From: Chloroflexota bacterium
GTDB lineage: Bacteria > Chloroflexota > Anaerolineae > Anaerolineales > Villigracilaceae
NCBI GenBank assembly: GCA_016213105.1
Contig: JACRBN010000028.1
Location: 1 to 64,000, forward strand
Length of the DNA: 64,000 bases
Direction: 5' to 3'
The notes beneath the pieces are model-generated. The model had not been told where the DNA came from and made no database searches. It saw only the letters and a list, made by a program, of their open reading frames with translations. Below are positions 8,433-34,130 of this stretch, in pieces; within the stretch, counting starts at the first letter, position 1; every line of letters begins with the position of its first letter. The position numbers were made by a program, and so were the translations under genes.

Positions 8433-9701
8433 ATGAACCATCCGCTTATCAAAACCCTGTTCGAGTTGAAGGGCAATCCGCGTATCACCGTGTGGACCGA
8501 AGTCATGTTCGGCATTCCGTACAACCTGTTCGCGCCGTTCTTTTCGGTATACATGCTGGCTTTTGGCGTGACCGACCAGCAGATCGGCGCCCTGGCCAGC
8601 CTGGGCCTGGTGGTGCAGATTTTCTCTGCCCTGCTGAGCGGCGCCATCGTCGACAAGTTCGGCCGCCGCCTGACCCTGTTCATCAACGACATCCTGTGCT
8701 GGAGTGTGCCCTGCCTGATCTGGGCCTTTGCGCAGGATTTTCGTTATTTCATTGCCGCCGCCGTGATGAGCAGCCTGTGGCGCATCTCGCACACGGCCTG
8801 GACCTGCCTGATGGTCGAGGATGCCGAGGAGCGCCACCTGGTGCACATCTGGACCTGGATCATGATCTTCGCCGTCTGTTCGGCTTTCTTCGCCCCGCTG
8901 GGCGGCTGGATCGTGGATCGGTACGGGCTGGTGCCCGCTCTGCGCTGGCTGTTCGGCTTTGGCTTTGTGATGCTGACCGCCAAGTTCGTGGTGCTGTACG
9001 TCTATTCGCATGAGACGACGCGCGGCGTGCAGCGCATGCAGGAAACCCGTCACCGCTCGCTGGTCAGCCTGCTGGGTGAATATCGCAGTGTCTTCGGCCA
9101 GCTTCTGCATTCCAGGCCGCTCCTGGCGGCCCTCGCGCTGATGGTCATCACCAACATCTACTCCACCGTCAGCGGCAGTTTTTGGGGCGTGTTGTTCACC
9201 ACCAAGCTCGGTTTTGCCGACTCGGAAATCTCCACCTATGTAGCCATCCGCTCGATCGTCATGACCCTCAGCTTCTTCGTCATCGGCCCGCGCCTGACCA
9301 ACCCGCGCCGCTTCCGCCTGCCGCTGTGGGCGGGATTCGGCCTCTTCTTCGTCAGCCAGTTGCTGCTGGTAACCATGCCGCCGCGCGCCGTTGCGCTGAT
9401 GGTCGTCAGCGTGATGCTCGAAGCGGTGGCCTCGGCCCTGGTCAGCCCGATGACCGAGTCGCTGCTGGCGCTGTCGCTGGAGTCGGCGGAACGGGCGCGC
9501 GTCAGCGCGATGGCCTACGTGGCCCTAATCATATTGATCTCGCCCTTCGGCTGGATCGCGGGCCAGCTCTCGGCCATCGACCGCGCCCTGCCCTTCGCCC
9601 TAAACATGGGCCTGTTTGCCCTGGGCATTTTGCTGGTCTGGATCATCGGGCGCCCGGGCATCTTCCCCCCCGCGCCGCAGCCGTCCACGCAGGCGGAATG
9701 A
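8433..9701 (+). CDS. MFS transporter
   Basis: A 422-residue membrane protein. The ATG at 8433 is chosen over an earlier in-frame start because MNHPLIKTLFELKGNPR is a plausible cytoplasmic N-terminus and GGAG lies ahead of it. About 12 hydrophobic segments follow the major facilitator pattern. The loop 2-3 signature appears as GAIVDKFGRRLTLF (~70), and the second half begins near SGSFWGVLFTTKLGF. No substrate-specific motif is recognisable; drug or sugar efflux are the common roles in this family. It stands alone between a repeat-rich leader and its own terminator. Confidence 0.82.
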   Translation: MNHPLIKTLFELKGNPRITVWTEVMFGIPYNLFAPFFSVYMLAFGVTDQQIGALASLGLVVQIFSALLSGAIVDKFGRRLTLFINDILCWSVPCLIWAFAQDFRYFIAAAVMSSLWRISHTAWTCLMVEDAEERHLVHIWTWIMIFAVCSAFFAPLGGWIVDRYGLVPALRWLFGFGFVMLTAKFVVLYVYSHETTRGVQRMQETRHRSLVSLLGEYRSVFGQLLHSRPLLAALALMVITNIYSTVSGSFWGVLFTTKLGFADSEISTYVAIRSIVMTLSFFVIGPRLTNPRRFRLPLWAGFGLFFVSQLLLVTMPPRAVALMVVSVMLEAVASALVSPMTESLLALSLESAERARVSAMAYVALIILISPFGWIAGQLSAIDRALPFALNMGLFALGILLVWIIGRPGIFPPAPQPSTQAE

Positions 9702-9710
9702 GAAAACGAG

Positions 9711-9746
9711 ACACTCCCCTTTCATAGCTGGAAGGGGAGTGTGTTT
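9711..9746 (+). terminator. Rho-independent terminator after MFS gene
   Basis: ACACTCCCCTT (9711-9721) pairs with AAGGGGAGTGT (9732-9742) and is followed by TTTs, 10 bases past the stop. Confidence 0.8.
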
Positions 9747-9827
9747 ATGTCTTTGGCAAAGTCCTTCCACACCAGATGGCTCATGTGTAAAAAATGTGCT
9801 ATCTTCTGGCTGGACGCCAAAATTCTA

Positions 9828-9900
9828 AACGCGAATGGCGCGAATATTACAAATTTCACTGAACATTCGCGTCATTCGTCCAATTTGCGTAATTCGCGTT
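9828..9900. repeat. Palindromic intergenic repeat (AACGCGAAT type)
   Basis: AACGCGAAT (9828-9836) is mirrored by ATTCGCGTT (9892-9900). Inner GCGAAT/ATTCGC copies repeat the motif. Together with the terminator it fills most of the ~300-base gap between the MFS gene and the antitoxin gene. Confidence 0.55.
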
Positions 9901-9925
9901 AAAAGCATTTGTTCTATTGCACAGA

Positions 9926-9989
9926 GTCTACACATGAGCCAAATTTTTTTCAACCCACCTTGCAGTATAATATGCCTACAAATGTAGAC
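9926..9989 (+). promoter_or_regulatory. Promoter and candidate operator of the toxin-antitoxin module
   Basis: A consensus -10 TATAAT (9966-9971) is followed by the inverted repeat CTACA-AA-TGTAG (9976-9987), which would lie over the transcription start. GTCTACA (9926-9932) and TGTAGAC (9983-9989) are exact complements further apart. Autorepression by antitoxin at such palindromes is typical of these modules, so this is the likely operator. Confidence 0.6.
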
Positions 9990-10004
9990 ACATTAGGAGC
10001 AGAC

Positions 10005-10253
10005 ATGGTAACGGTTGGAATTCGTGAACTGAAACAGCAGGCCAGCGAATTGGTGCGCATGGTGCGAGAAACCGGCAATGAGGTGCAGGTAACCTATCAT
10101 GGCGAAGTGGTCGCGTTGCTGATCCCCGTCAAGCCCGCCAGGAAGAGCGCGGATCAGGCCTGGGCGAATCTGGACAACCTGTCGGCGGAAATCGGCGCGC
10201 GCTGGCCCAAGGACGTTTCCGCCGCGGATGCGGTCAACGAGGCGCGGCGCTGA
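10005..10253 (+). CDS. Phd/YefM-family antitoxin
   Basis: An 82-residue protein starting at the ATG at 10005, with AGGAG about 6 bases ahead. The N-terminus VTVGIRELKQQASELVRMVRETGNEVQVTYHGEVVALLIPV-type pattern (seen as IRELKQQASELV, then EVQVTYHGEVVALLIPV) is the Phd/YefM DNA-binding fold. The C-terminal ~35 residues would wrap the toxin. Its stop overlaps the toxin start (TGATG at 10251-10255), so toxin and antitoxin are translationally coupled. It should neutralise the PIN toxin and repress its own promoter through the palindrome at 9976-9987. Confidence 0.9.
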   Translation: MVTVGIRELKQQASELVRMVRETGNEVQVTYHGEVVALLIPVKPARKSADQAWANLDNLSAEIGARWPKDVSAADAVNEARR

Positions 10254-10657
10254 TGTTCATCGTGGTGGATGCCAGCGTTTGGGTGGCCAGACTGGTGCCC
10301 GCAGATGTCTTCCATGAATCCGTCAAGGCATGGATGACCGCTCAACTCCAAAAAGGGGATCAATTTCTGGCCCCTGCCCTGCTGCTGGCGGAGGTGGGCG
10401 GCGCGATCAGCCGACGCACCACGTCCGCCCTGGCTTTGAAGGCCGTCGACCTGCTGCAAGACCTGCCTGGGTTGCAGTTCGTGGAAATGGATCATTCCCT
10501 GCTGGAGCAAGCCGCCCAACTGGCGGCTGTGCTTGGTCTGCGCGGCGCGGATGCAACCTACGTGGCGGTCGCGGCCCGTCTCGACCTGCCCCTATTCACC
10601 CTGGACGTCGACCAAAAATCGCGGGCGGGCAAACAGGTGACGGTGTTGGAGATTTGA
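10253..10657 (+). CDS. vapC: PIN-domain toxin (VapC family RNase)
   Basis: A 134-residue PIN-domain protein with the expected acidic metal ligands: D6 (VVDASVWVA), E47 (LLLAEVGGAI), an Asp near residue 100 (GLRGADATYVAVA) and a C-terminal LFTLDVDQ. PIN toxins are Mg-dependent RNases that cleave tRNA or rRNA and stop translation until bound by their antitoxin. The overlapping upstream gene encodes a Phd/YefM-type antitoxin, a common pairing for VapC-like toxins. The RNA target cannot be read from sequence. Confidence 0.9.
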   Translation: MFIVVDASVWVARLVPADVFHESVKAWMTAQLQKGDQFLAPALLLAEVGGAISRRTTSALALKAVDLLQDLPGLQFVEMDHSLLEQAAQLAAVLGLRGADATYVAVAARLDLPLFTLDVDQKSRAGKQVTVLEI

Positions 10658-25746: not shown

Positions 25747-26487
25747 ATGTCCATCAAAAACAAAGTCACATTGCTTCTGGTTCTTGCCCTGCTGCTGGCG
25801 GGATGCACCCCGACGCCGCAAAAGGAGACCGTACAGCAAGTCCAGGTTGTGCAGGAACAGGAACTGAGCATCAAGACCTTTGGCGTGGGCGAGGTCAAGG
25901 TCAGGCCTGATACGGTGCGTTTTGAGGTGGTCCTGGTCGTCGAGAACAAGGAATTGGCCCCCGCCGAACAGGAACTTGAAGAGAAGACGCAAAACATCAT
26001 TGCGGTATTGAAAGAATTCTCCATCCCCAATGGGGATTTCAAGGAGGATTATCCGAGCCTGACGACTGACGCGGTCGGAGCGAAAGTATACCGATACATC
26101 CTGAAACAAGACATAAAAGTAACCCTGCGTGACCTGACTCAATTGGAAGCGCTCTTTTCAAGGCTTCTCCAGATCGAGGCCACCCAAATTTCAGCCATTC
26201 GGTTTCAAATTGCAGACCTTGATTTATTTAAGGAACAGGCCCTGACGTTTGCAATTGCAGATGCAAGGAAAAAAGCCGAGGTGATGGCCGAAGAATTGGG
26301 CCAGGAGGTTGGGAAAGCCTTGGTCGTGGAAGAAATTGAATTGGACGAGGATTATCAGCCAAGCTACCCCCAAACCGTCTATTCAGGGGGCGCAGGCATG
26401 GAACCGCTTTTCAACCAGCTAAATGCCCTGTCGTTCAACGAGATCACCGTTCACGCAAAAATTTCCGTCAAGTTCGAGATCAAGTAA
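25747..26487 (+). CDS. SIMPL-domain (DUF541) lipoprotein 1
   Basis: A 246-residue lipoprotein starting after GGAGGAA, with signal LLLVLALLLAGC. Residues ~40-245 form a SIMPL/DUF541 domain (VGEVKVRPDTVRFEVVLVVE, DLTQLEALFSRLLQ, ALTFAIADARKKAEVMAEELG). Proteins of this family are exported and are linked to oxidative stress or signalling complexes, without a known biochemical activity. It is the first of three tandem paralogues with near-identical signal sequences. Each is preceded by the same upstream module, so the repeat unit includes the regulatory region as well as the gene. Confidence 0.88.
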   Translation: MSIKNKVTLLLVLALLLAGCTPTPQKETVQQVQVVQEQELSIKTFGVGEVKVRPDTVRFEVVLVVENKELAPAEQELEEKTQNIIAVLKEFSIPNGDFKEDYPSLTTDAVGAKVYRYILKQDIKVTLRDLTQLEALFSRLLQIEATQISAIRFQIADLDLFKEQALTFAIADARKKAEVMAEELGQEVGKALVVEEIELDEDYQPSYPQTVYSGGAGMEPLFNQLNALSFNEITVHAKISVKFEIK

Positions 26488-26515
26488 CCCGATTTCCTGG
26501 ATTCAAGTCATCGAA

Positions 26516-26607
26516 CCTTGCGAAGGTTTGGAATCAAACGGACAGTTGGCCGTGCCCGGCGTCCGTTCGTTGAAACAGGCCCGTCGCTGACAGTAACCTT
26601 CGCAAGG
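26516..26607. repeat. CCTTGCGAAGGTT inverted repeat, copy 2
   Basis: An exact second copy of the inverted pair, again about 40 bases ahead of a SIMPL gene. The sequence between the arms has diverged from copy 1, while the arms and the TTTTGCAAGGAGGAAT ribosome-binding region are kept. Confidence 0.75.
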
Positions 26608-26647
26608 ATGAATATCGGGCCATTTTCTTTTGCAAGGAGGAATATCC

Positions 26648-27388
26648 ATGTCCGTCAAAAACAAAGTCACATTGCTTCTGGTTCTTGCCTTGCTGCTGGC
26701 GGGATGCGCCCCGACGCCGCAAGCGCCGCAGCAGCAAAGAATTCAGATCATTGAGCAGCAGGAGAGAAATATTTCCACGTATGGATATGGAGAGGTCAGG
26801 GTCAAGGCGGATGTGGCGCGATTCATTGTCACCGTCCAGACCGAAAAGAGCGGCTTATCCCCTGCGCTGGAGGAAAACGAGCAAGCGACACAAGCGCTCC
26901 TGGACATTCTGCAAAAATACGAAATAGCCAACAACGATATAAAGTTGGATTATCTTCAGCAGGAAAAAAGCGGCACGGATTCGAAACCATACTTCAAACT
27001 CCGTCGGAATATAAAAGTGGTATTGCGGGACCTAACCCAGTTGGAGCCGCTATTTACAGAGATTATCGAGGTTCAAGCTTATCAGATTTCGGAGGTTCGC
27101 TTCCAGGTTTCGAATGTTGTTCTTTACGAAGAACAGGCAGTACGTCTGGCAATTTCCGACGCCAGGGCGAAGGCGGACATCATGACGACAGAACTGGGGT
27201 GCGAAGTCGGTGAAGCGATTAGCCTGCAAATGGAGACAATCTCAGATTTTCATAGAGAGAACAGCTTCTTTACTGGAAGGTACGAAGACAACAGGATCCT
27301 GTCGAGCGACCTCCCTTATTTGGTGTCCCAATCGCGCCAAGAGATTTCATTTCGATATGCCGTTCAGATGGAATTCCAGGTGAAATAG
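26648..27388 (+). CDS. SIMPL-domain (DUF541) lipoprotein 2
   Basis: The ATG at 26648 after GGAGGAA gives 246 residues; an in-frame start 18 bases earlier would run through the ribosome-binding site. The signal is almost identical to that of gene 1 (LLLVLALLLAGCAP). The SIMPL domain keeps YGEVRVKADVARFIVTVQTE and RLAISDARAKADIMTTELG. The body is far less similar to gene 1 than the signal peptide is, so the copies have diverged under different constraints. Function unknown. Confidence 0.88.
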   Translation: MSVKNKVTLLLVLALLLAGCAPTPQAPQQQRIQIIEQQERNISTYGYGEVRVKADVARFIVTVQTEKSGLSPALEENEQATQALLDILQKYEIANNDIKLDYLQQEKSGTDSKPYFKLRRNIKVVLRDLTQLEPLFTEIIEVQAYQISEVRFQVSNVVLYEEQAVRLAISDARAKADIMTTELGCEVGEAISLQMETISDFHRENSFFTGRYEDNRILSSDLPYLVSQSRQEISFRYAVQMEFQVK

Positions 27389-27563
27389 CCCATCCGCTCT
27401 TTTCAGAGTCAGGCAACCCACTTTCTTGTTGAAACACCCCAGCCTTGCGATGATTCGAAAATGGACAAATGGTTGATTACGTTTGACACCCGCCCGTTGA
27501 GATATGATCAGCAGTCTTCGCAAAGGTAAATCAAACAAACATCGTTTTGCATGGAGGAATGCC

Positions 27564-28310
27564 ATGTTCGTCAAATATAACGTCAGGTTACTTCTGTTTT
27601 TTGCCCTATTTCTGACGGGTTGCGCTCCAACGCCGCAAGCGCCGCAGGTGCAGGATATTCAAGTGATCCAGGCCAAGGAAAGGATCGTTTCTGCTCAAGG
27701 GAGGGGAGAGGTCAGGATACGGCCGGATGCGGTGCGCTTCACCATTACAGTCAAAACGGATGGAAGTGAACTGACTACCGCGCTAGAAGATAATGAAAAA
27801 GCAACCCAGGAGGCCTTGGCCCTCCTGAAGAAATACGAAATAGCGGACGCCGACATCGAAACAGACCAGCCCAGCCAGGAGGAAGGCGTATTTGAGCCGA
27901 TTCGCTATTTTGTTCGCCAAAATATTAAGGTGATCTTGCGCGACCTGACCAGGTTTGAAACGCTGAGCACAGAAATCCTGCAAGGCGGGGCCTATCATAT
28001 TTCAGAAGTGCGATTCCTGGTTTCCGACCCTGCACTTTACAAGGAACAGGCGCTGAACCTGGCTGTTTCGGACGCCAGGGACAAGGCGGAAATCATGGCG
28101 GTAGAAATCGAGCGCGAACTTGGTGAAGCACTCACCATACGCGAACTTGGAGAAGCACTCACCATATACCAAGTAAATGGATACCTCTACGAACGTGGAA
28201 CAACACGGTACGGATCAAATCTGGAGGTCGAACTTCCCGACGCAGTCTATCAATCCTTCAATGAATTGGAAATTCAAATCGAAGTAGTGGTGGAATTTCA
28301 GTTGAAATAG
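27564..28310 (+). CDS. SIMPL-domain (DUF541) lipoprotein 3
   Basis: The ATG at 27564 follows ATGGAGGAAT and gives 248 residues. The lipoprotein signal LLFFALFLTGCAPTPQAP is followed by the SIMPL domain (RGEVRIRPDAVRFTITVKTD, LNLAVSDARDKAEIMAVEIE). Near residue 190 a nine- to ten-residue stretch, RELGEALTI, is repeated twice in tandem; the other copies lack this, so it is a recent internal duplication. It is the last gene of the triplet and the most diverged upstream. Confidence 0.87.
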   Translation: MFVKYNVRLLLFFALFLTGCAPTPQAPQVQDIQVIQAKERIVSAQGRGEVRIRPDAVRFTITVKTDGSELTTALEDNEKATQEALALLKKYEIADADIETDQPSQEEGVFEPIRYFVRQNIKVILRDLTRFETLSTEILQGGAYHISEVRFLVSDPALYKEQALNLAVSDARDKAEIMAVEIERELGEALTIRELGEALTIYQVNGYLYERGTTRYGSNLEVELPDAVYQSFNELEIQIEVVVEFQLK

Positions 28311-29565: not shown

Positions 29566-29621
29566 TTGACAATTATCATCCTCTTTGTTATATTTTGAGA
29601 AATCCTGATAAAGATAACAAA
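29566..29621 (+). promoter_or_regulatory. Promoter and possible operator of the DeoR-NosL/PCu(A)C pair
   Basis: TTGACA (29566-29571), a 17-base spacer and TATATT (29589-29594). TTTGTTAT (29584-29591), overlapping the -10 box, and its exact complement ATAACAAA (29614-29621) could be an operator for the regulator encoded next. Confidence 0.6.
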
Positions 29622-29630
29622 AGGTCACAC

Positions 29631-30188
29631 ATGCCCCACTCCGCCAACCGTGAACAGAAAATCCTCGAAATCCTGAAAGCCCAGGGCAGCGCATCCATCC
29701 AGGAGCTGGCCGGGGCGCTGGAGGTTTCGCCCATGACGGTGCATCGCGACCTGAACCGCCTGGCCGAGGCGGGGCTGGTGCAAAAGACGCACGGCGGCGC
29801 CTCCCTGGCTGCGGAATCCGCTGCGAGGGGCGGCTGCGCCATGTGCGGGAAGCCCATCCACGAACGGACGGTTTTCCTGTTCAGCCTGCCCAACGGCGAA
29901 CAGCGCCGCGCCTACTGCGCTCACTGCGGCCTGATGTTGCAACAACAGACGCCGAACGCGGGCCAGGCCATGACCGCCGACTTCCTGCACGGACACATCG
30001 TCAGCGCGGGGCAGGCGGTCTTTCTGCTCGAAAGCGAGCTGACGGTCTGCTGTGTGCCCAGCGTGTTAAGCTTCGGCTCGCGCGCCGAGGCGGAACGCTT
30101 CCAGAAGGGATTTGGCGGACGGCTGGCAAATCTAAAGGAAACCTTGCATTTCCTGCACGAAACCATGCACGCCAGCCAGGCCGCATAA
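29631..30188 (+). CDS. DeoR-type HTH fused to a NosL-like metal-binding domain
   Basis: The ATG at MPHSANREQKILE gives 185 residues. Residues ~4-60 are a DeoR-type winged helix (ILEILKAQGSASIQELAGAL, VSPMTVHRDLNRLAEAGLV, THGGASLA). Instead of the usual sugar-phosphate sensor, residues ~70-180 hold two CxxC pairs (CAMCGKP and CAHCGLM) and a stretch resembling NosL copper proteins (ADFLHGHIVSAGQAVFLL, then SFGSRAEAERFQKGFGGRL). His and Met residues are frequent at the C-terminus. It is probably a metal-sensing repressor. The copper chaperone gene 27 bases downstream supports copper as the ligand; this is inference. Confidence 0.78.
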   Translation: MPHSANREQKILEILKAQGSASIQELAGALEVSPMTVHRDLNRLAEAGLVQKTHGGASLAAESAARGGCAMCGKPIHERTVFLFSLPNGEQRRAYCAHCGLMLQQQTPNAGQAMTADFLHGHIVSAGQAVFLLESELTVCCVPSVLSFGSRAEAERFQKGFGGRLANLKETLHFLHETMHASQAA

Positions 30189-30215
30189 GTTTCAAAAAAA
30201 TCAAAGGAGAGAGAA

Positions 30216-30671
30216 ATGAAGAAGTTGTTGACGCTCGCCCTGCTGGGCATGTTTGTGTTGAGCGCCTGCGGGGCGGGTGAGAAGATCGAGGCGCACGACG
30301 CCTGGGCGCGCGCCGCCGTACAGGGCGAGAACAGCGCCATCTACCTGCTGCTGCACAACCACACCGCCGAGGACGATGAACTGCTCAGCGCCTCGACCGA
30401 TGCGGCTGGGATCGTGGAACTGCACGAGAGCCGCATGGTGGCAGGCACCGACATGATGGAAATGGTGCCGCAGGAATCCGTGCCCCTGCCCGCCGACGGC
30501 GAGGTGGAATTCAAGCCGGGCGGCCTGCACATCATGCTGATCGGCCTGACCCGCGACCTGAACGTCGGCGACGAGATCAGCCTGACCCTGACCTTCAAAA
30601 GCGGCCTGACCCTGACCCTGACCGTGCCCGTCGAAGAGGGCATGCCTGGCATGGAAGGCATGAATCACTAA
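30216..30671 (+). CDS. PCu(A)C copper chaperone lipoprotein
   Basis: A 151-residue protein after AAAGGAGAG, with lipoprotein signal GMFVLSACGAG. It matches the PCu(A)C (DUF461) family: HDAWARAAVQGENSAIYL near the start, then the copper ligands H and M in VELHESRM, MMEMVPQ and GGLHIMLIGL. The C-terminus is Met/His-rich (GMPGMEGMNH) and may add binding sites. These proteins carry Cu(I) outside the membrane, often to the CuA or CuB sites of oxidases. The preceding gene encodes its likely regulator. No oxidase gene is in the window. Confidence 0.92.
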   Translation: MKKLLTLALLGMFVLSACGAGEKIEAHDAWARAAVQGENSAIYLLLHNHTAEDDELLSASTDAAGIVELHESRMVAGTDMMEMVPQESVPLPADGEVEFKPGGLHIMLIGLTRDLNVGDEISLTLTFKSGLTLTLTVPVEEGMPGMEGMNH

Positions 30672-30754: not shown

Positions 30755-30786
30755 AATCCCGCTCCCAGTGAGCGGGATTTTTTCTT
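30755..30786 (+). terminator. Terminator after PCu(A)C gene
   Basis: AATCCCGCTC (30755-30764) and GAGCGGGATT (30770-30779) form a stem followed by TTTTTCTT. Confidence 0.88.
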
Positions 30787-30800
30787 AACTGGCGCTTATT

Positions 30801-30842
30801 TTGTGACTAAAGTCACAACAATTCAGACAAATTTGGTATAGA
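30801..30842 (+). promoter_or_regulatory. nrfH: Crp/Fnr-type operator and promoter of nrfHA
   Basis: TTGTGACTAAAGTCACAA (30801-30818) is a perfect TTGTGAC-N4-GTCACAA palindrome. A -10 TATAGA lies at 30837-30842. The predicted start near 30849-30851 places the operator centre at about -40, the class II activator position, where it replaces a -35 box. The Crp/Fnr regulator at 33432-34130 is an obvious candidate for binding here. Confidence 0.8.
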
Positions 30843-33431: not shown

Positions 33432-34130
33432 TCAATTGTAGGGATGAGTCCACTGCTCCATGGCGGCGGCGTCGGCCACGTAGATGCGCCGATCCTCGAT
33501 GCGGATCGCCCCGCTGCGCTCCAACTCTTTGAGTGAGCGCGCCACCACCTCGCGCACCGTGCCCAGGCGCGCCGCCAATTGCTCCTGCGTCCAATGCGGC
33601 AGGGGGCGTCCCTGCGGATCGTTGTGCGGCAGTTCGCTGATCAAGCGCGCCAGGCGATGCGTGACCTGATAGAAGGCCATCTCGCTGACCTTGTGTACCA
33701 TGCCGCGCAACATCCTGCCAAAATTCGCCAGCACCTTCTGCGCAAACGTGGGATGCGCCAGCACCAGGCGGCGTAGCAACTCGCTGTCGATGACCCACAC
33801 GCGGCAGGCCTCCAGCGATTCCACGTTGACGGGGTGCAGCCCGCCGTCGAAGGCGGGCACCTCGGCAAAGGTGTCGCCCTCCTGCAGGACGCGCACGATG
33901 TACTGGCGTCCCTGCGGGGAAAGGCGGTAGATCTTGGCGCTGCCCTTCTCGATGATGTACAAGCCCGTGCAAACGTCGCCCTCCCAGAATAGGACTTCGC
34001 CGCGCTCGTACTCGCACAGGCGGGTATGCGCGGCAATCTCCCTCAACATCTCATCGGGCAGCTCGTTGAAATATTCGTTTTCGCGCAGGGTCCTGATCTT
34101 CGAGGAGTTGGAAACTTCGATTGACTTCAT
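33432..34130 (-). CDS. Crp/Fnr-family transcription regulator
   Basis: A 232-residue regulator. Residues ~15-135 are a cyclic-nucleotide-binding-type beta-roll (RGEVLFWEGDVCTGLYIIEKG, QYIVRVLQEGDTFAEVPAFD). The dimer helix follows, then a C-terminal HTH at ~180-220 (WTQEQLAARLGTVREVVARS). It lacks the N-terminal Cys cluster that holds the [4Fe-4S] centre of Fnr, and the cAMP-binding Arg motif is not clear, so the signal may be haem, NO or another ligand. It is the last gene of a three-gene run and may act on the nrfHA operator at 30801-30818. Confidence 0.9.
   Translation of the reverse strand: MKSIEVSNSSKIRTLRENEYFNELPDEMLREIAAHTRLCEYERGEVLFWEGDVCTGLYIIEKGSAKIYRLSPQGRQYIVRVLQEGDTFAEVPAFDGGLHPVNVESLEACRVWVIDSELLRRLVLAHPTFAQKVLANFGRMLRGMVHKVSEMAFYQVTHRLARLISELPHNDPQGRPLPHWTQEQLAARLGTVREVVARSLKELERSGAIRIEDRRIYVADAAAMEQWTHPYN

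Follow-up and report, generated by a model that had tools for sequence, protein, structure and literature searches.

A predicted YcnK-family copper regulator paired with a PCu(A)C chaperone gene in a Chloroflexota bacterium

YcnK of Bacillus subtilis carries a C-terminal NosL-like domain, and its operator is a 16-bp direct repeat. Passages of published work describe the protein as a copper-dependent repressor that uses its helix-turn-helix domain (PMC8424229) and place it in the DeoR family, with a 573-bp gene in a B. amyloliquefaciens table (PMC10991351). The ycnKJI genes, the target of its repression, are reported to be upregulated in copper starvation and downregulated when copper is replete (PMC12154828), and ycnK deletion strains to have raised copper import (PMC13344008). 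The discussion of a 2026 mBio paper proposes that cytosolic Cu+ antagonizes YcnK, against that paper's own wording of a 'Cu-dependent repressor', so the sign of the YcnK copper response is not beyond doubt.

A gene probably of this type lies in the stretch of DNA analysed here, a window of 64,000 nucleotides from a Chloroflexota bacterium (assembly GCA_016213105.1, contig JACRBN010000028.1, positions 1 to 64,000) whose 5.39-Mb genome is assembled in 28 contigs and is 97.55% complete. The regulator gene (29631..30188, forward strand; ATG at 29631, stop at 30188) encodes 185 residues. Separated from it by 27 bases is the gene of a PCu(A)C copper chaperone (30216..30671, forward strand), the 151-residue product of which has a lipoprotein-like start and matches Pfam PCuAC (PF04314, E = 6e-35) over residues 27–134. 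Genome-wide profile searches return a single PCuAC match, this gene (30216–30671), and a single NosL-family match, the regulator itself (29631–30188). As with YcnK, the predicted product is a DeoR-family repressor encoded by the first gene of a copper operon. It differs from YcnK in coming from another phylum, in having PCu(A)C as its partner where YcnK is accompanied by YcnJ, a CopC-CopD-YtkA importer, and YcnI, a DUF1775 chaperone, in having Y95 where most relatives have a cysteine, and in predicted half-sites that are inverted and 29 bp apart rather than directly repeated.

The regulator is composed of a DeoR-type winged helix-turn-helix (residues 7–60, 29649..29810, forward strand; HTH_DeoR, PF08220, E = 4.6e-18, 65 bits) and a predicted sensor domain (residues 64–178, 29820..30164, forward strand), which in an AlphaFold model built from an 88-sequence alignment (mean pLDDT 93.1) is a NosL fold. 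The best match of the model in the PDB is NosL (Foldseek, 7og7, E = 2.4e-5), followed by MerB and by NosL from the NosDFYL complex, and structural alignment of model residues 64–178 with 7og7 superposes 112 residues with a Z-score of 14.7 and r.m.s.d. of 2.2 (VIA-align). A profile search from sequence only also reaches NosL (E = 1.2e-5), and the Pfam NosL family covers residues 121–170 (28.4 bits, cut-off 24). HTH_DeoR is matched by 88/88 homologues and Pfam NosL by 78/88 at E 0.001. Among solved structures, the best phmmer match to the whole regulator reaches E = 0.026 and falls on the helix-turn-helix. A first-pass annotation of this DNA had described a DeoR-like helix-turn-helix joined to a NosL-like half with two CxxC pairs, a PCu(A)C gene 27 bases downstream and an inverted repeat over the −10 element. 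Both CxxC pairs (C69/C72 and C96/C99) are present, the location of the chaperone gene is exact, and the NosL call, now reached by both structure and profile, is right for the entire C-terminal domain.

Resemblance to the NosL chaperone lies in this fold and in the weak sequence similarity noted above; unlike NosL, the regulator domain is fused to a helix-turn-helix, and no secretion signal is seen. The regulator does not keep the CxM motif to which copper binding in NosL has been ascribed as a proposal (PMC6530538), as the profile alignment places K74 at the methionine position of 7og7, and C96, C99, C140 and C141 are additional. A secreted NosL lipoprotein with CxM was considered and rejected, the N terminus being a helix-turn-helix and K74 standing in place of the methionine. 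The organomercurial lyase MerB ranks directly after NosL in the structure search with the regulator model, and a profile comparison aligns its winged helix and core with the regulator (probability 78%, E = 1.8e-5), albeit in a weak, gapped alignment from which kinship with MerB is suggestive only. MerB differs in being an enzyme, and a search of the window's genome with Pfam MerB finds nothing. MerB and NosL themselves are described as overlapping very little in sequence (PMC8261052).

Preceding the regulator is a sigma-70-type promoter (TTGACA-N17-TATATT, 29566..29594, forward strand) that agrees with the consensus at 11 of 12 positions and has TG before the −10; TTGACA occupies 29566–29571 and, after a spacer of 17 bases, TATATT occupies 29589–29594. 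Lying over the −10 is a putative left operator box, TTTGTTATATTTTG (29584..29597, forward strand), which has a single exact copy in the genome and similar boxes in close relatives. A putative right half-site, ATAACAAA (29614..29621, forward strand), is inverted relative to it. The exact inverted repeat formed by TTTGTTAT (29584–29591) and ATAACAAA, with 22 bases between, overlaps TATATT as first annotated; by chance, the 64-kb window should contain 0.02 such repeats with three or fewer mismatches, and the exact spaced pair occurs once in the 5.39-Mb genome. With up to two mismatches, the 14-base box has 34 matches in the genome, against 34 for a reversed control; 32 of them have two mismatches, and the only one with a single mismatch sits within a 209-residue open frame. 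The 20-kb region surrounding the cluster of oxidase and Sco genes in this genome contains no TGTTA-N4-30-TAACA pair. A regulon beyond the operon was accordingly rejected, as the box count equals its control, the exact pair is single and none lies near the oxidase and Sco genes; the regulator's own promoter alone is supported as a target. After the operon is a weak terminator-like hairpin (30755..30779, forward strand), a 10-bp stem followed by TTTTCTT; the scan finds three such sites in the region, against 1.9 in shuffled sequence.

Related boxes recur upstream of the regulator in other genomes. In the 120 bases upstream of 18 close relatives, the window included, TGTTAT or ATAACA occurs 40 times, where 2.7 are expected and none of 300 shuffles gives more than 9. 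The shorter TGTTA/TAACA word exceeds all 300 shuffles in three of four phylum groups, namely the other Chloroflexota (27 against 10.2 expected, largest shuffle 19), the Bacillota (31 against 12.0, largest 20) and a Thermodesulfobacteriota-type group (13 against 3.9, largest 10), and shows no excess upstream of the Aquificota-type members (2 against 2.2). The count of a scrambled control word stays within the shuffle range in all groups, although it is high in the other Chloroflexota (26 against 14.9, largest 27). Start codons for these counts were picked by script, and L054, a copy, was excluded from both the tree and the counts. The arrangement around the boxes also recurs: because the 18 relatives are closely related, their box and spacing counts are not independent, but a TTGACx-N17/18-TATAxx promoter is present in 16 of them, TAACA follows TGTTA by 29 bases in 14 (the window included in both), and two TAACA boxes are spaced 10 bases apart in 10. 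L033 has TAACA at 19 bases as well as at 29, L043 has it at 39 bases only, and L048, L051 and L059 have no spaced TGTTA/TAACA pair. Spacings that differ by single helical turns suggest that the inverted boxes form a helically phased operator, to which the regulator may bind cooperatively on one face of the DNA.

The regulator is very probably a copper-responsive autorepressor of the two-gene operon, which would open at copper scarcity and thereby provide PCu(A)C for the loading of cytochrome oxidase. It would act as a one-component sensor, its DeoR-type winged helix binding DNA and its NosL-fold domain, with six cysteines, binding a metal that is most likely Cu(I). Bound to the paired TGTTAT half-sites over its own −10, it would repress both its own gene and that of PCu(A)C; the predicted sites extend over the −10 and the region of the start, a placement most naturally read as repression of this operon. 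At falling copper the regulator would lose its metal and release the DNA, and the PCu(A)C then made would load the CuA site of a cytochrome c oxidase whose genes lie elsewhere in the genome. We infer copper as the bound metal and the paired site as the one that the regulator binds; repression by the metal-bound form is assumed by analogy with YcnK. COX2 is the oxidase subunit that carries CuA, and in this genome its gene shares a cluster with a Sco gene. PCu(A)C probably serves this oxidase. Against copper-scarcity autorepression count the lack of an operator pair in that cluster, the 28/88 loci at which no copper-family gene lies within 3 kb, the Aquificota-type group without TGTTA enrichment and the Y95 of the window copy.

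The sign of the response could be the reverse, with the regulator acting as an activator, or with copper relieving repression, and the operon forming a response to copper excess. This differs from copper-scarcity autorepression in sign only and is unlikely: the mBio proposal of antagonism by Cu+ points that way, and a buffering role for PCu(A)C at high copper is conceivable, whereas a site over the −10 and start region is the position of a repressor, the ycnKJI genes are described as up in starvation and down when copper is replete, and published work treats PCu(A)C and Sco as loading factors.

The candidate metal site of the proposed copper autorepressor is built from cysteines. The first CxxC pair, C69 and C72 (29835..29846, forward strand), the second, within Y95-C96-A-H98-C99 (29913..29927, forward strand), and two adjacent cysteines that the first-pass annotation had not named, C140-C141 (30048..30053, forward strand), supply six cysteines that are invariant in 88 aligned homologues. 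At position 95, 87 of the 88 have cysteine, and the sole exception among them is the window protein, with tyrosine. Part of this set comes from a scan of named genomes with the patterns VSxMT[IV]HR[DE]L and ACC[APS]HCGL, which gave at least 575 relatives (597 stretches) and from which the best 80 loci were used; L044, L053 and L070 were dropped as copies; the conservation of C95, C96, H98 and C99 in the 88-sequence set is thus partly built in by the second pattern. In 11 full-length homologues retrieved without a pattern, the window's included, C69, C72, C96, H98, C99, D117, C140, C141 and P143 are invariant, and the ten others all have C95. The six cysteines would suit Cu(I) and are the candidate metal ligands.

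Homologues are spread over several phyla. Among the best 80 of at least 575 relatives are Chloroflexota, Bacillota, Thermodesulfobacteriota and Aquificota, and the tree of homologues includes one labelled Acidobacteriota and one labelled Myxococcota. In a sample of 400 Chloroflexota genomes, ten carry the 11 full-length homologues among the matches listed, and the other listed matches cover roughly the first 60–80 residues, corresponding to the helix-turn-helix. The sensor domain is present in 31 of 299 Bacilli genomes, three of which were already in the main sample, and a pattern scan found no viral contig encoding a homologue. The regulator on contig L088, labelled Chloroflexi, falls inside the Thermodesulfobacteriota-type clade, by transfer or because the contig is mis-binned.

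Clustering of the open reading frames around these loci, with Pfam naming of representatives, identified PCuAC, SCO1/SenC, YtkA, PepSY_TM and CopC (with CopD below the cut-off) as recurring neighbours, DUF1775 also being recurrent. At least one of PCuAC, Sco, YtkA, PepSY_TM and CopC lies within 3 kb at 60/88 loci and within 1.5 kb at 58/88; by family, PCuAC is within 3 kb at 38 loci, Sco at 18, YtkA at 14, PepSY_TM at 7 and CopC at 5. The same five families have no match up to 1.5 kb either side of 20 HTH-only DeoR loci, nor in 107 far stretches (324 kb) of the regulator loci. The five profiles were built from genes of the same loci, so the independent part of this linkage is the Pfam naming and the Bacilli sample, in which a copper gene lies within 1.5 kb at 22/30 loci, three of the 30 being copies of counted loci. 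The ten full-length Chloroflexota homologues besides the window's include nine with a copper-family gene, eight of them with PCuAC. No member of the five families is within 3 kb at 28/88 loci, some of them shortened by contig ends; these 28 include all nine rows of the Thermodesulfobacteriota-type clade and all seven of the Aquificota-type clade. In three loci of the former clade, L080, L082 and L094 (Desulfopila and Geobacter-type), genes of one cluster stand up to 3.5 kb upstream of the regulator and are read from the opposite strand; the L094 member is a TonB-dependent receptor by Pfam and is possibly a copper receptor. L083, in the Thermodesulfobacteriota-type clade, has a NosL gene downstream of the regulator, and in L046 a 587-residue protein with several near-identical tandem PCu(A)C-like repeats is encoded next to the regulator of that locus (8608–10371).

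The members without copper neighbours in these two clades are in keeping with a YcnK-family protein that senses a thiophilic metal other than copper (zinc, silver or mercury) or the redox state of thiols (oxidation), its four CxxC cysteines being structural zinc ligands and its copper linkage indirect. C69/C72/C96/C99 resembles a zinc knuckle, and NosL and MerB domains are held in one published account to derive from treble-clef zinc fingers (PMC4999995). Such a sensor is nonetheless improbable, given the strong linkage to copper-delivery genes in two phyla, the members in ycnKJI order described below and the copper dependence reported for YcnK. It is hardly tenable that the gene encodes an ordinary DeoR regulator of the sugar type that chances to precede a PCu(A)C gene. 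HTH_DeoR gives the top Pfam hit, but none of the 17 families matched at E ≤ 0.001 is a DeoR C-terminal sensor, a NosL fold standing there instead, and copper genes accompany 58/88 loci against 0/20 HTH-only controls within 1.5 kb, results that already contradict such a reading. The likelihoods given to these alternatives, which partly overlap with copper-scarcity autorepression, do not sum to one with it.

The gene order of the Bacillus system recurs in L075 (Ammoniphilus) and L098 (Brevibacillus), in which the regulator is followed by CopC-CopD and DUF1775, the ycnK-ycnJ-ycnI order; the L116 regulator likewise adjoins CopCD and DUF1775 genes. CopC of L098 and DUF1775 of L075 were called by Pfam, the rest by cluster membership. 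All three regulators share the invariant cysteines and fall in the Bacillota clade of the tree of the window regulator. B. subtilis itself is absent from the best 80 of at least 575 relatives kept in the named-genome scan, and its genome, used as a control, matches Pfam NosL above the cut-off. On shared architecture and operon order, we conclude that the window gene most plausibly belongs to the YcnK family. The first-pass annotation had proposed a copper-sensing module of an unusual regulator type and had named two outcomes that would speak against it, a known non-metal DeoR sensor and homologues unlinked to copper genes. Both were looked for, and a NosL fold and copper linkage were found instead; the module is upheld by architecture and gene linkage. 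Its novelty is not: YcnK, a DeoR-family copper-responsive repressor already in print, has the same architecture.

Searches of the open-licence literature for DeoR combined with NosL, or for both with copper, found no paper. As far as that literature shows, the Chloroflexota branch tied to PCu(A)C, the cross-phylum box and the spacing rule are new here, and to them is added a near-invariant cysteine replaced by tyrosine in the window copy. The YcnK-type copper sensor, known from Bacillus, may thereby be extended to Chloroflexota and two further lineages, and a DNA box, TGTTA repeats across phyla, is predicted for the type. The six invariant cysteines and the natural Y95 variant are handles on the way in which the sensor would bind copper. 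In uncultured respiratory bacteria of this kind, PCu(A)C is predicted to be a copper-starvation gene. Only tentatively, the Chloroflexota branch may have exchanged the control of copper import (YcnJ/YcnI) for that of delivery (PCu(A)C and Sco), with boxes 19, 29 or 39 bases apart, in one-turn steps, bound by a dimer of dimers or by looping unlike canonical DeoR sites, and a winged helix joined to a NosL domain with a cysteine site may be the kind of regulator from which MerB arose.

MerB-like genes of Chloroflexota form a separate observation. Seven of them (L202, L206, L208, L211, L212, L213 and L216) contain one in-frame TGA each, which we take to stand at the second active-site cysteine of MerB. 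A SECIS-like hairpin follows the TGA in all seven fetched single-TGA loci (CTTCCGGTCGGAAG in five, CTTCCGGTCGGAGG in two), with folding z-scores of −2.3 and −0.3 in the two loci tested. A tRNA-Sec above the cut-off is found in 20/20 genomes with a TGA-bearing gene and 18/20 without (40 of 58 genomes tested), and so does not discriminate. A selenocysteine-containing MerB-like protein with a CU motif, SaoL, is already in print; the Chloroflexota genes lack a cysteine preceding the TGA, unlike the CU motif of SaoL.

Beyond the operon of the window lie nrfHA, and control of these genes by the YcnK-type regulator was left aside as unsupported: the terminator-like hairpin and a CRP-like palindrome, TGTGACTAAAGTCACA (30802–30817), precede nrfH, and in L037 and L038 nrfHA is upstream of the regulator, not downstream. 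TGTGA-N6-TCACA stands before 8 of 11 related nrfH genes, two of the 11 being copies of one genome. Just past nrfHA is a CRP-family regulator gene (33432–34130, reverse strand; Pfam cNMP_binding and HTH_Crp_2). With the CRP-like site following the hairpin, nrfHA is probably in another regulon, likely a separate nitrite-reduction regulon together with the CRP-family gene. On the other side of the operon, positions 25747–28310 hold three tandem related lipoprotein-like genes (246, 252 and 268 residues) that share LLLxxALxLxGCxPTPQ near their start.
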